DNA of 61,137 nucleotides from NCBI GenBank assembly GCA_016209985.1, contig JACQVB010000209.1:1-61137 (forward strand). Reading direction: 5' to 3'. Shown here piece by piece: positions 1,130 through 24,803 of this stretch. Under the pieces are notes generated by a model that ran no database searches, was not told the origin of the DNA, and saw nothing but the letters and a program-made list of their open reading frames with translations. Positions within the stretch are counted from its first letter, which is position 1. Each line of letters opens with the position of its first letter. Both the position numbers and the translations under genes were made by a program. This DNA comes from Gemmatimonadota bacterium. Lineage in GTDB: Bacteria > Gemmatimonadota > Gemmatimonadetes > Gemmatimonadales > GWC2-71-9.

Positions 1130-1816
1130 CTACTGCTCCCGGGCGACCGCTGCCTTCAAATCAATCATCTGAATGCCGTGCGCGTATTCGGTCACCGGGG
1201 CATTCGCGAGGGAGGTGAGTTTCCGAACGTCGCCCGCGATCCGTAGCGCCGCTTGATGGATGGAACGAGCGGCGGCCTTGCCTTCCGGTGACAGCCCAGA
1301 CTCGGTCTCGCTCAGCAGCTGGCTCTCCGCCACGATCGATGTAAGGGCGTTGTTGACTTCGTGCCGGATGGTAACGGCAAATTCTCCGATCGCTGCCAGT
1401 CTGGCATCGCGCAGCATCCGCTGGTAATACCCGTGCAACTGCTCTGACAACCAGCCAACGCTGATCGCCAGCACCCCGTAGGCGACGTAGATGGGCACCG
1501 TCACCCGCCAATCGCTGGCAGAGTAGTTCAGGGCCACCACGATCTGAACGGTTATGAACAACGCCGTGCCCATGAGGAGGCCCGCGACTGCCCCCTTGAG
1601 TCCGTAATGCAGCGAGAGCAGAAAAGCTGGGGCCAGGGTGATCAACCAGACAAGCTCGTCATAGCCCGAAGGCTCACTCTCCGGAAGCACCACCTGGGTC
1701 ATCACGGGGATGAGGTACGCTGCCGCACAATACAGCCAGAACCGCGCGGTGAGCGGTGGGCGGTGGGCCAGAGGACCGAATCCGACCAGTTGGAGGAACC
1801 GACGCTGCAGCGACAT
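1130..1816 (-). CDS. Membrane histidine kinase-like protein with DHp domain only
   Basis: The first half holds about four hydrophobic segments (residues 25-125), forming a membrane sensor module. After it comes a DHp (HisKA-type) dimerisation helix with an H-box, TIRHEVNNALTSIV, putting the phospho-acceptor His near residue 152. The protein stops at residue 228 after the second DHp helix. No N, G1 or G2 boxes of a HATPase_c domain follow, and none is found downstream on this strand before pit. It therefore cannot autophosphorylate alone; it may be a phosphotransfer or dimerisation partner, or a truncated kinase. The gene follows the helicase gene by about 76 bases in the same direction. Confidence 0.7.
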   Translation of the reverse strand: MSLQRRFLQLVGFGPLAHRPPLTARFWLYCAAAYLIPVMTQVVLPESEPSGYDELVWLITLAPAFLLSLHYGLKGAVAGLLMGTALFITVQIVVALNYSASDWRVTVPIYVAYGVLAISVGWLSEQLHGYYQRMLRDARLAAIGEFAVTIRHEVNNALTSIVAESQLLSETESGLSPEGKAAARSIHQAALRIAGDVRKLTSLANAPVTEYAHGIQMIDLKAAVAREQ

Positions 1817-4277: not shown

Positions 4278-7188
4278 ACGGTGGGACCGGGAAGGCAGCG
4301 GCGACCCGCACGTTGATCCGGCGATAGCCGCCGCGGGCTTCGTCGGCGGTCACGCGCGCGAGCGCGGCACACCAGACCGAGTTGAAAACCGCCGCGATCG
4401 CGAGCGCGGTGTCCCGATCGCCGGTCCCCAGCGTGTAGCAGGTGTTCAAGGGGACGGCGCGCGGAACGCCGCAGGCTTCGAGCAGCGCGGCGACGGGCCG
4501 GCGCGCGATGTCGGACCACACCATCCGGCAGCCCGAGGGCCGGGCGGGTGTTCGAAAAAGGGTCCAGGGAGGCCCGTCCTGGTAGTCGGCACGGGCCTGC
4601 AGCCGCGGCAAATGGGACCGAAAGTACGCTGCCGCGAGCGGCGGCAAGGATTCGAGCGGAGCTCCTCCGGCGTCGTGGGTCCAGATGAGCGCCTTGTCGA
4701 GACGGACCCCGAAGCGCCGCACGTCCCGGCCGCGAATAGCAGGCCGCAGCATTTCCCACTCGATGCTCACTTCCTGAGCGGCAAGTCTGAGCCGCGCGAT
4801 GGGCCCATGCCGCCCGATCAGCGCGCCGACGAAGAGATCGTCGGCCCCGGTTTTCACGCCCAGGGCGGGCGGCGCGATCTCCCGGAGCGGGCGCCCGGCG
4901 GCAAGAAGCTGCTCCAGCGCGTCACGCTGGCGATCGGGAACGAGGATCCACGGCCCAGGCACGGCAAGGCGCGACTGGGTCAGCGCTTCCCCGCTCCGAA
5001 AACCGAGCTTCACGTGCTGGCTGGAGCTCGGCCGACTCTTGCTCAATACCACCGCGAGCGGATAGGTCGTGGCGCCGAAGGAATCCGCTTCGCGCTCCGG
5101 TATGCGATGCAGATACGCGAGACGGGTTTCGGCCACGAGGTGTCGCCGCGCGGTCTCGCCGTAATCGGCCGACGCGAGCTTGGCGGGAACCAGCATGGCG
5201 ACGACGCCGCCAGGGGCCGCGAGCTCGAGGGCACGCTCGAGAAACGCCACCGAGAGATCGGGGAGGTGGGCGAATCCGCGCCCTCCCGAGCTCCGCCACC
5301 AGCCGAATCGCTGGCGCAAGGTGTCCCGCAGTCCTGCCGGTACCCGCTCGGCGCGCACCCAGGGCGGGTTCCCGACCACGATGTCGAAGCCACCGGCGGC
5401 CATCACCTCGGGCGCATGGACCTCGAACGCGAAGAACGGAACCTGTCCGTCGGCGATGGCGACCTGGACACTCTGGAGAGCGGCGCGATGGCGGAGGAGC
5501 AGACGGCAGCGCTCCCGTTGCGATTTGCTGAGGCCGCTGGAACGCCCGAAGAGGTCCGGGTTGCGGGCGAGCGAGGCGAGCTCCCGAAGTGCGCGATCGG
5601 CGGTCTCCGCGGCGCGGGTGACCAGCACCCCGGCAAGGTCGCACTCCTTCCCGCGCAGGCGGGCGGTGGCGTGGTGCAGACCTTCGCCCGATGCGCCGAA
5701 GAGCGCCCGCCTGGCGAGTGACACGGCGCGCGCGGTCGCGGCCGCCGGAAGCCGGGCGCCGGCGTACCAGGCGCGCGCCGCACCAACCGGATCCAGCAGC
5801 GAATCCCCTTGGCGGACGACACCGTCGAGGTTGGGCAGCGGTGTCACGTGGGCGATCTCGGCGGTGGGATCGTCGGCGATGACGGCGAGCCAGAGCCGGA
5901 GCTCGGCCAAACGTACCGCGATCGGGCTCAGGTCGACGCCGAAAAGGTTGGCGGCCAGAATGTCGCGACGGACCCGGGAGCGATCCCGCCCGAGCTCCGG
6001 ATCCAATGCCACCCGTATCTCGGTAAGGCGGTCGAGAGCGCCGAGCAGGAACGCGCCGGATCCTGCGGCCGGATCCAGCAACTTCAGACGTTGCAGGGCG
6101 GTGCGCGCCAGGTCCCGGTTGGCGAGGTCCTGCGCGGATCCCTGGAGCAGGCGGCGCACATCGACGGAGCCCAACCTGGTGGTGAGGGAGCTTTCGATCG
6201 CGGCATCCACGATCTGGCGAACCACGGATTCAGGGGTGTAGAAGGTGCCGGTGTCCTTGCGATCGCGATCGTCCATCACGCGCTCGAAAACGCGACCCAG
6301 CATGTCGGGCGCGATGGCGTCGACCTCGTCGGCTTCGCGGACACAGAACCGGAATCGCTCGAACAACAGGTCGAACGCGTCGCGCCAGAGGTTGTTGGGG
6401 AAGAGAATGGGGCCAAAACGCCGCTCGACCGGATGGGGCTCGAACAGGCCGCCGTTCAAGTAGGGAATGGCTCCGAGGCGCGCGACTCCGGTGCGCCGGG
6501 CGGACGGGCGGTTCAGGCTTCCGAAGAACAGCGGGTGGAGCGCGCTGCGATGAAAATGCTTCCGTCGGGCGAGAGAGGCATCGAGCAGGCGGCGGAGATA
6601 GTCCGGCCGACCGTCGAGCCAACCCTTGGCCTGCACGAAATAGAGGAAAAGGATGCGGGTGAGCGGGAGTAACGCCGCGGTGCGGCGTTCCACCGGTGTA
6701 CCGCGCCGCGGGAGGACCGCGGCCATGCGCCCGAGTATCTGGCGGAAGGCCACAAAGAACCGTTCGCCGACGGTCTCGGTGCTGAGGAGCTCGGCGACGC
6801 GAATGGCGTGCGCCAATGCATTGGGGCAGCCGTCCGGCCGCAACGACTCCAGCAAGCGCAGCGCACCGGCCTGCGGCTTATCCAAAGAGACCGACTGGAC
6901 GCGGGTGCTGCCGCCGGTGCCGAGCCGGGGGGCGGCGAGCGCCAGCTCGCCGGCGCCGATGGCGGCGACCAGAGCGCGGCGGGAGGAGGATTCGAGTTTG
7001 GCGGCGAGCGAGCGCGCTCCAGCCCGGGGATCCGGCGCCTCGCAGGCCAGGACCTCGAATGTTCGCCAGCGGCCGACCAGCCAGCTGGCGTCTTCGAGGG
7101 GTTGGGGATCGCAGGCATAGCCGAGCGCCGCGAAGAGCGGGGCAGCGTCACGCGCCGTGCGAATGGAAGCGAGAAGGTCTCCGAGCAC
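4120..7188 (-). CDS. N6-adenine DNA methyltransferase (Eco57I/type IIG-like)
   Basis: Large (1022 residues) class I SAM-dependent DNA methyltransferase. SAM-binding motif I reads LLDPAAGSGAF (about residue 371) and the catalytic motif IV is VVGNPPWV (about 604), both typical of gamma-class adenine methylases. Upstream of motif I is the DTGTFYTPESVVRQIV segment seen in HsdM/Eco57I-like enzymes. The C-terminal 350 residues should be target recognition. No PD-(D/E)XK motif stands out in the first 300 residues, so it is probably not a full type IIG nuclease. GTG start at 7188 after a G-rich stretch. With the helicase gene it forms a two-gene unit resembling minimal DISARM/BREX-type or R-M modules. 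Confidence 0.85.
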   Translation of the reverse strand: MLGDLLASIRTARDAAPLFAALGYACDPQPLEDASWLVGRWRTFEVLACEAPDPRAGARSLAAKLESSSRRALVAAIGAGELALAAPRLGTGGSTRVQSVSLDKPQAGALRLLESLRPDGCPNALAHAIRVAELLSTETVGERFFVAFRQILGRMAAVLPRRGTPVERRTAALLPLTRILFLYFVQAKGWLDGRPDYLRRLLDASLARRKHFHRSALHPLFFGSLNRPSARRTGVARLGAIPYLNGGLFEPHPVERRFGPILFPNNLWRDAFDLLFERFRFCVREADEVDAIAPDMLGRVFERVMDDRDRKDTGTFYTPESVVRQIVDAAIESSLTTRLGSVDVRRLLQGSAQDLANRDLARTALQRLKLLDPAAGSGAFLLGALDRLTEIRVALDPELGRDRSRVRRDILAANLFGVDLSPIAVRLAELRLWLAVIADDPTAEIAHVTPLPNLDGVVRQGDSLLDPVGAARAWYAGARLPAAATARAVSLARRALFGASGEGLHHATARLRGKECDLAGVLVTRAAETADRALRELASLARNPDLFGRSSGLSKSQRERCRLLLRHRAALQSVQVAIADGQVPFFAFEVHAPEVMAAGGFDIVVGNPPWVRAERVPAGLRDTLRQRFGWWRSSGGRGFAHLPDLSVAFLERALELAAPGGVVAMLVPAKLASADYGETARRHLVAETRLAYLHRIPEREADSFGATTYPLAVVLSKSRPSSSQHVKLGFRSGEALTQSRLAVPGPWILVPDRQRDALEQLLAAGRPLREIAPPALGVKTGADDLFVGALIGRHGPIARLRLAAQEVSIEWEMLRPAIRGRDVRRFGVRLDKALIWTHDAGGAPLESLPPLAAAYFRSHLPRLQARADYQDGPPWTLFRTPARPSGCRMVWSDIARRPVAALLEACGVPRAVPLNTCYTLGTGDRDTALAIAAVFNSVWCAALARVTADEARGGYRRINVRVAAAFPVPPFGPGTLRLASLSASAHERTDVSADDLDEAVADAFDLPAAVRQTLRSLAAHRR

Positions 7189-23008: not shown

Positions 23009-23551
23009 TTGGCACGCTACCGCGTTCTCTTCGTCGACGATGAGCCGGCGATCCTCAAATCGCTCGGCGACTACTTTGAAAAACTCGGCCATGACGTCTA
23101 CCGGGCGGACACGGGCAAGGGCGGCATCGCCATGTTCGAGAAGGTCAAGCCCGACGTGACGGTCCTGGACCTCAAACTACCGGACATCTCAGGGCTGGAA
23201 GTGCTCAAGGACATTCGCCGGCACAACGCGACGGTCCTCATGCTGACCGGCTACGGCGAGGTCGAGACGGCGGTCGAGGCGATGCGACTCGGCGCCGAAA
23301 ACTTTCTCACCAAGCCGGTGGACATGGGCCACCTCGCCGCCACCGTGGAGAAGGCCGCGGAGAAGAACCAGCTCCGTCGCGAGAACGTCGAGCTGCGGTC
23401 CCGCCTTCCCAGCCTGCGGCGCCAACTGGTCCGTTGGGGCACGGTCGTGATTTTGCTGGCGGCCTCGGTCTGGGTGGGAAGGTGGATCGGCAAGGAACGG
23501 GAGCGGCCGCTGAGCCCGATTCCGGTGCCGATCGACAGCACGACGCGCTAA
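23009..23551 (+). CDS. Response regulator with a C-terminal membrane anchor
   Basis: Receiver domain in residues 1-120: VLFVDDEPA (acidic pair), phospho-Asp in VTVLDLKLPD (about residue 53), the Thr in VLMLTGYGE and Lys in NFLTKPVD, so all switch residues are present. A charged coiled stretch follows (ENVELRSRLPSLRRQLVR) and then one hydrophobic helix, VVILLAASVWVGRWIG (about 149-164), and a short tail. There is no DNA-binding or enzymatic output domain. It should be a membrane-tethered receiver, an unusual layout. TTG start with GAGG 4 bases upstream. No kinase gene is adjacent. Convergent with the DUF190 gene with a 4-base overlap. Confidence 0.82.
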   Translation: MARYRVLFVDDEPAILKSLGDYFEKLGHDVYRADTGKGGIAMFEKVKPDVTVLDLKLPDISGLEVLKDIRRHNATVLMLTGYGEVETAVEAMRLGAENFLTKPVDMGHLAATVEKAAEKNQLRRENVELRSRLPSLRRQLVRWGTVVILLAASVWVGRWIGKERERPLSPIPVPIDSTTR

Positions 23552-23943
23552 TCCTCCGCTTCCAATCCCTCGATTCGATGCAGCTCCTGCTGCGAGGGCC
23601 GGACGTTGGCGGGGCGGTACATGATCACGTTGGCGCGCTCGAGCGTGATCAGGCCGCCGCCGATCAAGCGGTCGAGGTCGGGGAGCACGCTGTCGATGGT
23701 TTCCTGAGTCTCCACTACTTCGACTATGATCGGAAGGTCGAGTGAGAGGCGAAGGACTTTTTCAGTGTGCATCTTGGCGCTGGCGCCGAAACCAGCTATG
23801 CCGCGCAACACGGTCGCTCCGGCCAAGCCCCGGCGGCGAAAGAGCTCGAGCAATGCCTCGTACAGCGGTTTGCCTTCATACTTGTCGCTCTCGCCGATGA
23901 AGATCCGCATGAGGGTACGGTCGCCCTTGAACCGATGGGTCAT
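23548..23943 (-). CDS. DUF190 domain protein
   Basis: 131-residue GlnB-like fold protein. Conserved segments: MRIFIGESDKYEGKPLYEAL, LFRRRGLAGATVLRGIAGFG, and DLPIIVEVVETQETIDSVLP with LIGGGLITLE. DUF190 genes are often found beside crcB fluoride channel genes, as here. The function is not known, but the PII-like fold suggests ligand-dependent regulation of a partner. It is third in the fluoride riboswitch operon, 21 bases after crcB. ATG start. Confidence 0.9.
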   Translation of the reverse strand: MTHRFKGDRTLMRIFIGESDKYEGKPLYEALLELFRRRGLAGATVLRGIAGFGASAKMHTEKVLRLSLDLPIIVEVVETQETIDSVLPDLDRLIGGGLITLERANVIMYRPANVRPSQQELHRIEGLEAED

Positions 23944-23964: not shown

Positions 23965-24339
23965 CTAAAGCAGCTTCCGGGCGGCCAACAGTCCCGCCGC
24001 CGTGGCGGTGAGATTCCCGCCGATGGATGCGAGCAGATACCACCCCGCCCGCCCGTACTCGCCGCCGTTCACCAGGATGACGGTCTCATAGGCGAAGGTG
24101 CTCATGGTGGTGAACGCGCCGCAAAAACCGATCGTGGCCGCCGCCCGAAGCTCGGGGGTGGCGATGCCTGAACCGAGCAGGTACCGCATCAGAAATCCGA
24201 GCGCAAAAGAGCCCAGCAGGTTGACGACCAGCGTGCCCCACGGGAAAGACCCGCCCTGCGGCTGGATGAGACCCTGAAGGCCATATCGGGCCAGGGTGCC
24301 GAGCACGCCGCCCAGCGCGAGATAGATCACCAGTCTCAT
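23965..24339 (-). CDS. crcB: Fluoride ion channel CrcB (Fluc)
   Basis: 124 residues, four transmembrane helices. Signatures: LGGVLGTLARYGLQG near the start, the PWGTLVVNLLGSFALGFLM helix with the pore Asn, and GFCGAFTTMSTFAYE, the Na-site and phenylalanine-box helix. It works as a dual-topology homodimer that exports toxic fluoride. Its ATG overlaps the stop of the upstream 129-aa gene by 4 bases (24336-24339). A fluoride riboswitch precedes that gene, so expression is fluoride-controlled. Confidence 0.95.
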   Translation of the reverse strand: MRLVIYLALGGVLGTLARYGLQGLIQPQGGSFPWGTLVVNLLGSFALGFLMRYLLGSGIATPELRAAATIGFCGAFTTMSTFAYETVILVNGGEYGRAGWYLLASIGGNLTATAAGLLAARKLL

Positions 24340-24725
24340 TCGCGACGCCCTTCGAATCTGTAGAGCAGAGCACGGACCGCGTCCTCCAAGGCCACAACTT
24401 TCGGATCCAGGTGCGGACTCAAGGCTGGAGAAACGGGGCCGTAGGCCGCGAGCTTGGTCGCGTGCAGATCATGCAGGTGGACCAGCCACGCTCCGCACAG
24501 CGCGGACAGCCGTCTCCACGGATCGGCTCCAGTCGGCAAATCGAGCCCAATGGTCGCGAGAATGCTTTCCGCGCGCTCGCGAATCAGTTTGATCTCGCTT
24601 CGCGATTCGATCGTGCGGGGCCCTGCCGGGAGAGTGGACGCCAAATCCTCAAAGTCTTCCACCAACAGCCGCAGCATGACGCCGAGGTGCCGTTGTTGGT
24701 TGGGGTTGAGGAGGTTCGCGGACAT
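24336..24725 (-). CDS. Unknown 129-aa protein, first gene of the fluoride riboswitch operon
   Basis: Helical, soluble protein with no membrane span. Segments such as QRHLGVMLRLLVEDFEDL and ALEDAVRALLYRF suggest a helical bundle; HLHDLHATKLAAYGP contains three His in ten residues. I do not recognise the family. It is translated directly from the fluoride riboswitch leader (GGAG 7 bases before ATG 24725) and is coupled to crcB by a 4-base overlap, so a role in fluoride tolerance is likely (inference). Confidence 0.8.
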   Translation of the reverse strand: MSANLLNPNQQRHLGVMLRLLVEDFEDLASTLPAGPRTIESRSEIKLIRERAESILATIGLDLPTGADPWRRLSALCGAWLVHLHDLHATKLAAYGPVSPALSPHLDPKVVALEDAVRALLYRFEGRRE

Positions 24726-24747
24726 GAGACGACTCCTACCTTAATGT

Positions 24748-24803
24748 GAGCAGGAGTCATCAGCCCGCGGATGCGGACGGGTGACGGCGAACTCCATCGC
24801 CGG
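24748..24803 (-). promoter_or_regulatory. Fluoride riboswitch (crcB motif)
   Basis: On the minus strand the leader carries all aptamer parts: GGCGATGGAGTTCGCC (P2 with internal P1 5' strand), a linker, a P3 hairpin CCCG...CGGG, and the conserved 3' CTGATGACTCCTGC. GGAGT pairs with ACTCC to close P1. The 3' strand GACTCCT is also an exact complement of AGGAGTC (24731-24737), which contains the Shine-Dalgarno of the next gene. Without fluoride the two can pair and hide the ribosome site; with fluoride P1 forms and translation starts. The switch logic is inference from complementarity. Confidence 0.93.

Follow-up and report, generated by a model that had tools for sequence, protein, structure and literature searches.

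The leader of a three-gene operon on the minus strand of the window (the whole stretch of 61,137 nucleotides analysed here, contig JACQVB010000209.1 of a Gemmatimonadota bacterium) is very probably a translational fluoride riboswitch of the ON type, as predicted from covariance matching, folding and comparison with relatives. The operon consists of ORF129 (24336–24725), a member of an uncharacterised family recognised by alignment (LNxNQxRH ... LxGYGxV), followed by crcB (23965–24339), which encodes a Fluc fluoride channel (Pfam CRCB 6.8e-27; TIGR00494 over its cut-off), and a DUF190 (COG1993) gene (23548–23943; Pfam DUF190 1.2e-37). The aptamer lies in the 5′ leader of this operon and is thus associated with fluoride-export genes; a glutamine-dependent NAD synthase gene is transcribed in the opposite direction from 24894.

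A preliminary description had reported the parts of a crcB aptamer in this region, without stating the strand, and had proposed an Infernal search. This search (cmscan) bears out the identification: the full RF01734 model (positions 1–64 of 64) matches minus-strand coordinates 24810–24744 at 48.3 bits (E 2.5e-10; gathering score 34). No other match in the source genome (4.64 Mb, 289 contigs scanned) passes the cut-off, and the runner-up scores 15.3 bits. P1, P3 and a pseudoknot between the P1 loop and a 3′ strand are all present. The P1 hairpin GGCGATGGAGTTCGCC (GGCG...CGCC; 24786–24801) carries the 5′ pseudoknot strand GGAGTT in its loop (24795–24790), P3 (24763–24778) pairs GTCC (24778–24775) with GGGC (24766–24763), and the 3′ pseudoknot strand is GACTCC (24753–24758), all on the minus strand. 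The pseudoknot GGAGUU/GACUCC comprises six pairs with a duplex energy of −6.7 kcal/mol. The cmscan alignment contains one deviation from the consensus, in the A before P3 (AACC to ACCC), and the same change is present in a same-genus relative (locus L024).

The ribosome-binding site AGGAGTC (24731–24737, minus) precedes the ORF129 ATG at 24725, with 7 nt separating GGAG from the start codon. In the minimum free energy (MFE) fold it lies within a Shine-Dalgarno (SD)-sequestering hairpin (24728–24761, minus) with 13 base pairs (24761–24749 with 24740–24728) and an 8-nt loop (24748–24741), and the same 13 pairs are present in the fold of the leader. The core of the 5′ arm is the 3′ pseudoknot strand, such that the SD is paired in the predicted ligand-free fold by a strand that the aptamer also uses. 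The 44-nt hairpin stretch folds with −17.2 kcal/mol, compared to a mean of −8.0 for shuffled sequences (0/200 shuffles as stable; z −3.85), and the fold of the whole 116-nt leader has a z-score of −4.2. Complementarity of the core is partly automatic, because the conserved aptamer ACUCC resembles an anti-Shine-Dalgarno sequence, and the AGGAGTC 7-mer is no rarity, with 11 occurrences in the window versus 8.3 expected; it is the extension to a 13-bp helix, rather than the 7-mer core, that goes beyond chance. Since the hairpin uses all six pseudoknot bases together with the flanking A, U and U, which we take to be part of the aptamer core (the linchpin pair), the aptamer and sequestering folds are mutually exclusive.

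Several elements of the preliminary description require adjustment in light of this structure. It had noted that GACTCCT is perfectly complementary to AGGAGTC 13 bases further on; the match is exact (GACUCCU 24758–24752 with AGGAGUC 24737–24731, both on the minus strand), with 14 bases between the two, and the anti-SD helix is predicted to form as described, over 13 bp rather than 7. It had also proposed that P1 formation frees the ribosome site. The switching strand is instead the 3′ strand of the pseudoknot, so formation of the pseudoknot would free the site. The proposal of translational control with fluoride as the ON signal is consistent in sign with the computations, which predict anti-SD pairing and no terminator.

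In the absence of fluoride, the 3′ strand of the pseudoknot and the neighbouring AU and U would leave the aptamer and pair with the SD region, and the resulting 13-bp hairpin would prevent ORF129 from being translated; coupling of translation across the ATGA overlap with crcB would keep crcB low as well. With Mg2+ and fluoride, presumed to be bound by the aptamer, the pseudoknot would be locked during RNA synthesis, the hairpin could not nucleate, and the ribosome site would be expected to open. Fluoride probably acts co-transcriptionally, because the bare pseudoknot helix (−6.7 kcal/mol) is weaker than the hairpin (−17.2 kcal/mol), and would stabilise the pseudoknot ahead of transcription of the SD arm, in a kinetic choice. 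As the hairpin outweighs the bare pseudoknot helix at equilibrium, the switch would work only with strong fluoride binding or a kinetic choice of this type.

The hairpin arm in the window is followed by UCGUCUC and then AUG, the longest U-run is 1, and a search for terminator-like sites gave none at the hairpin. An intrinsic terminator in the window was rejected, as the U-tract is absent, and dual attenuation of transcription and translation, which calls for a terminator hairpin with a U-tract no more than ~10 nt from the start codon, does not describe the hairpin, which is close to the start codon but has no U-tract. The situation in relatives is more varied. Among 395 Gemmatimonadota genomes sampled, 57 have a riboswitch match. 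The 59 places over the cut-off in this sample, together with two in genome G024 from another scan, make up 61 loci with 58 distinct leaders. In 56/61 loci the same strand pairs downstream in the MFE fold (three or all four of the CUCC bases), with no such pairing in the simple MFE fold of the other five, and in 36/61 loci an ORF of at least 75 aa begins 3–15 nt after the arm. Some of these assignments are doubtful, as folding misplaces the arm at a few loci (e.g. G206, G064 and G046:C48) and a TTG start within a U-tract is not a secure one. Scoring a U-run as at least four within 9 nt after the arm, the 58 distinct leaders include 19 in which the hairpin is merged with the ribosome site and has a U-run, 14 merged without one, 10 with hairpin and ribosome site apart and a U-run, 10 apart without one, and five that are armless. 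One genome (G024, contig 147; locus L088) contains two fluoride riboswitches facing each other ~3 kb apart, at 1587–1656 (+) and 4613–4679 (−), one followed by a U-tract and ORF129-crcB-DUF190 and the other, which has no U-tract, by another long ORF.

A T-run of at least four is present inside the SD–start spacer in 16/33 merged leaders, as against 1/70 control GGAG–ATG spacers, which were restricted to ATG starts and ORFs of at least 150 aa. Loci L010, L038, L041 and L081 are examples, and the same-genus genome G001 has the spacer TCTTTTC with crcB directly behind it; many relatives with a U-tract at this position are, judged by sequence, putative combined terminators and sequestrators. These U-runs, and in particular the UCUUUUC of the same-genus relative, would fit a reading in which the window hairpin acts at transcription, either as a poor intrinsic terminator or by hiding or exposing a Rho entry site, with translation affected secondarily. 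We regard this as unlikely for the window itself, where the spacer is TCGTCTC with no U-run longer than 1 and nothing resembling a terminator coincides with the hairpin.

The predicted cost of opening the SD supports sequestration by the pseudoknot strand. In the window it falls from 15.2 to 6.0 kcal/mol once the pseudoknot strand and the loop are withheld, and masking the pseudoknot bases likewise lowers the predicted cost in 32 of the 33 distinct leaders that have a start codon close by. The residual 6.0 kcal/mol corresponds to pairing of the SD with early codons, and the predicted ON-state SD is not bare, with this weaker pairing to the early coding region persisting. A CCUCCU sequence (minus strand, 24714–24709; ORF129 codons 4–6) can pair with the SD if the pseudoknot strand is unavailable, and is a possible second brake on translation. 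The OFF-state cost in the window is the highest among the 33 leaders, which together with the altered consensus A could indicate a decayed riboswitch, its hairpin too stable or its aptamer too changed to respond and ORF129-crcB simply kept low. Decay is nonetheless very unlikely: all of the helices and the pseudoknot are intact, the covariance score is well above the cut-off, the operon genes are intact, and the aptamer change is common to the same-genus relative.

Comparison across leaders indicates that pseudoknot strands and SD regions are matched to each other. Across the 33 distinct leaders whose start codon lies close by, the pairing of each pseudoknot arm with its own SD region averages −15.9 versus −13.0 when arms are swapped, with 0/20000 permutations as good; the arm positions here, and in the three-way covariation below, were taken from predicted folds, a choice that biases the result towards own pairing. 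The own pairing beats the swap mean in 28/33 leaders, with the reverse outcome in G070, G005, G064, G093 and G028, and for the pseudoknot strand of the window none of the 32 arms from other loci pairs better. Three-way covariation is seen among 53 distinct leaders, with loop U/pseudoknot A/arm U in 34, loop C/pseudoknot G/arm C in seven, and other combinations in 12 (Fisher 4.6e-4, without correction for relatedness), and a fold-free choice of arm gives weaker covariation (p 0.02; 53 leaders, five dropped, also without correction for relatedness). Chance complementarity is disfavoured by the extended helix and the arm-swap test. That the complementarity is a by-product without regulatory meaning, any AGGAG ribosome site matching the aptamer ACUCC, is scarcely credible: the core of the match is indeed consensus against consensus and swapped arms still pair appreciably, but the helix reaches 13 bp, own arms outperform swapped ones, and the three positions covary.

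The stop codon of ORF129 overlaps the crcB start codon (ATGA), and this overlap recurs at other loci (e.g. L046, L050, L053, L059 and L063) and is absent from the ORF129 loci L011, L027 and L073, which suggests translational coupling of ORF129 and crcB in many loci, if not all. Hiding a single SD could therefore control both genes. The ORF129 protein of the window has no match in Pfam or NCBIfam. A profile search of the fetched loci identified 19 distinct full-length members as well as shortened remnants, and an alignment of 18 members has invariant residues Q10, R12 and G96. A single-protein search places ORF129 in 11/395 genomes of the phylum, and in 8/58 distinct leaders the riboswitch is followed first by ORF129. 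Operons of the form riboswitch-crcB-DUF190 often have ORF129 first (the window, L046, L047, L050, L053, L059, L063, L011 and L027). Among the 18 aligned members, a DinB_2 identity was rejected as an isolated weak match (1/18, 9.7e-4), as were NCBIfam identities, for which the matches are likewise weak and isolated; the best PDB profile matches are to apolipoproteins (E 0.007 and above) and were taken to reflect generic helix similarity. The AlphaFold2 model (three-row alignment) is poor, with a mean pLDDT of 60.5 and helices only. ORF129 represents an undescribed family of small, probably helical proteins, and may take part in fluoride resistance. A remnant of ~70 aa lacking the middle of the protein is situated between the riboswitch and crcB in L031, and a 28-aa remnant occupies the same position in L105, whose leader is identical to that of L041; it is as if the leader were retained while the ORF129 gene is being lost.

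Similar leaders are present outside the phylum. A strict sequence pattern, running from the aptamer loop and pseudoknot strand through GGAGTC and five bases to a start codon, was used to scan a species-level genome collection and yielded 15 stretches, six of them from Gemmatimonadota; the remainder are from two Syntrophus, one each of Smithella, Rhodanobacter, an acidobacterium, an Acetobacteraceae member and an alphaproteobacterium, and two Planctomycetota. Like that of the window, the hairpins of the leaders from Syntrophus, Smithella and the acidobacterium lack a U-tract. In L094 and L103 the hairpin is not seen in a 42-nt fold, and some of the ORFs there are short.

A broader interpretation for the Gemmatimonadota, which we offer tentatively and hold at somewhat less than even chances, is that the pseudoknot strand doubles as an intrinsic anti-Shine-Dalgarno sequence and that the expression platform may pass, over a short course of evolution, from a terminator, through a terminator merged with the ribosome site, to a pure sequestrator such as that of the window, by gain or loss of a U-run in the SD–start spacer; the riboswitch would also control the undescribed ORF129 family, translationally coupled to crcB. 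The phylum offers a natural series in which the same aptamer strand occurs with and without a U-tract, even inside one genus, and lets one ask how a riboswitch shifts between transcription termination and occlusion of a ribosome site. Most work on this class has treated it as a transcriptional switch, and the window contributes a clear translational example. A literature search, in which few subscription journals were covered, found no paper on fluoride riboswitch leaders in Gemmatimonadota or on this crcB operon with DUF190, its results being a soil-metagenome paper for the former and an unrelated review for the latter.

The individual components of the proposed switch have precedents. Weinberg 2010 (PMC2864571) described terminators overlapping the crcB motif, with an ON response expected, and a 2022 paper (PMC8814607) states that fluoride riboswitches sometimes act by terminators and sometimes presumably by translation. 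In Hertz 2026 (PMC13273304), covariation is reported for a pseudoknot and a terminator stem sharing one strand, the exchange of six pseudoknot nucleotides into the platform is already described, and the P. syringae and B. pseudomallei fluoride riboswitches are used as translational controls. The window resembles these translational riboswitches of Pseudomonas syringae and Burkholderia in aptamer family, expected response to fluoride (ON) and presumed control of ribosome access, and differs from them in phylum and in the first gene regulated. With the transcriptional switches of Bacillus cereus and Thermotoga petrophila (PMC11077080, PMC13273304) it shares the exchange of the pseudoknot 3′ strand with a downstream hairpin; whereas their hairpin has a U-tract and terminates transcription, that of the window ends in the SD–start spacer and has none. 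Barrick and Breaker 2007 (PMC2258182) described ribosome-binding sites within terminator hairpins as dual platforms, and the window is similar in having its ribosome-binding site on the 3′ side of the hairpin. The relatives L010, L038, L041 and L081 fit the dual-platform description, and the window, which lacks the U-tract, therefore belongs to the plain translation-attenuation class of the same paper. Because strand exchange, translational fluoride riboswitches and dual platforms have all been published, the window leader is best viewed as a further case of a known kind of switch.
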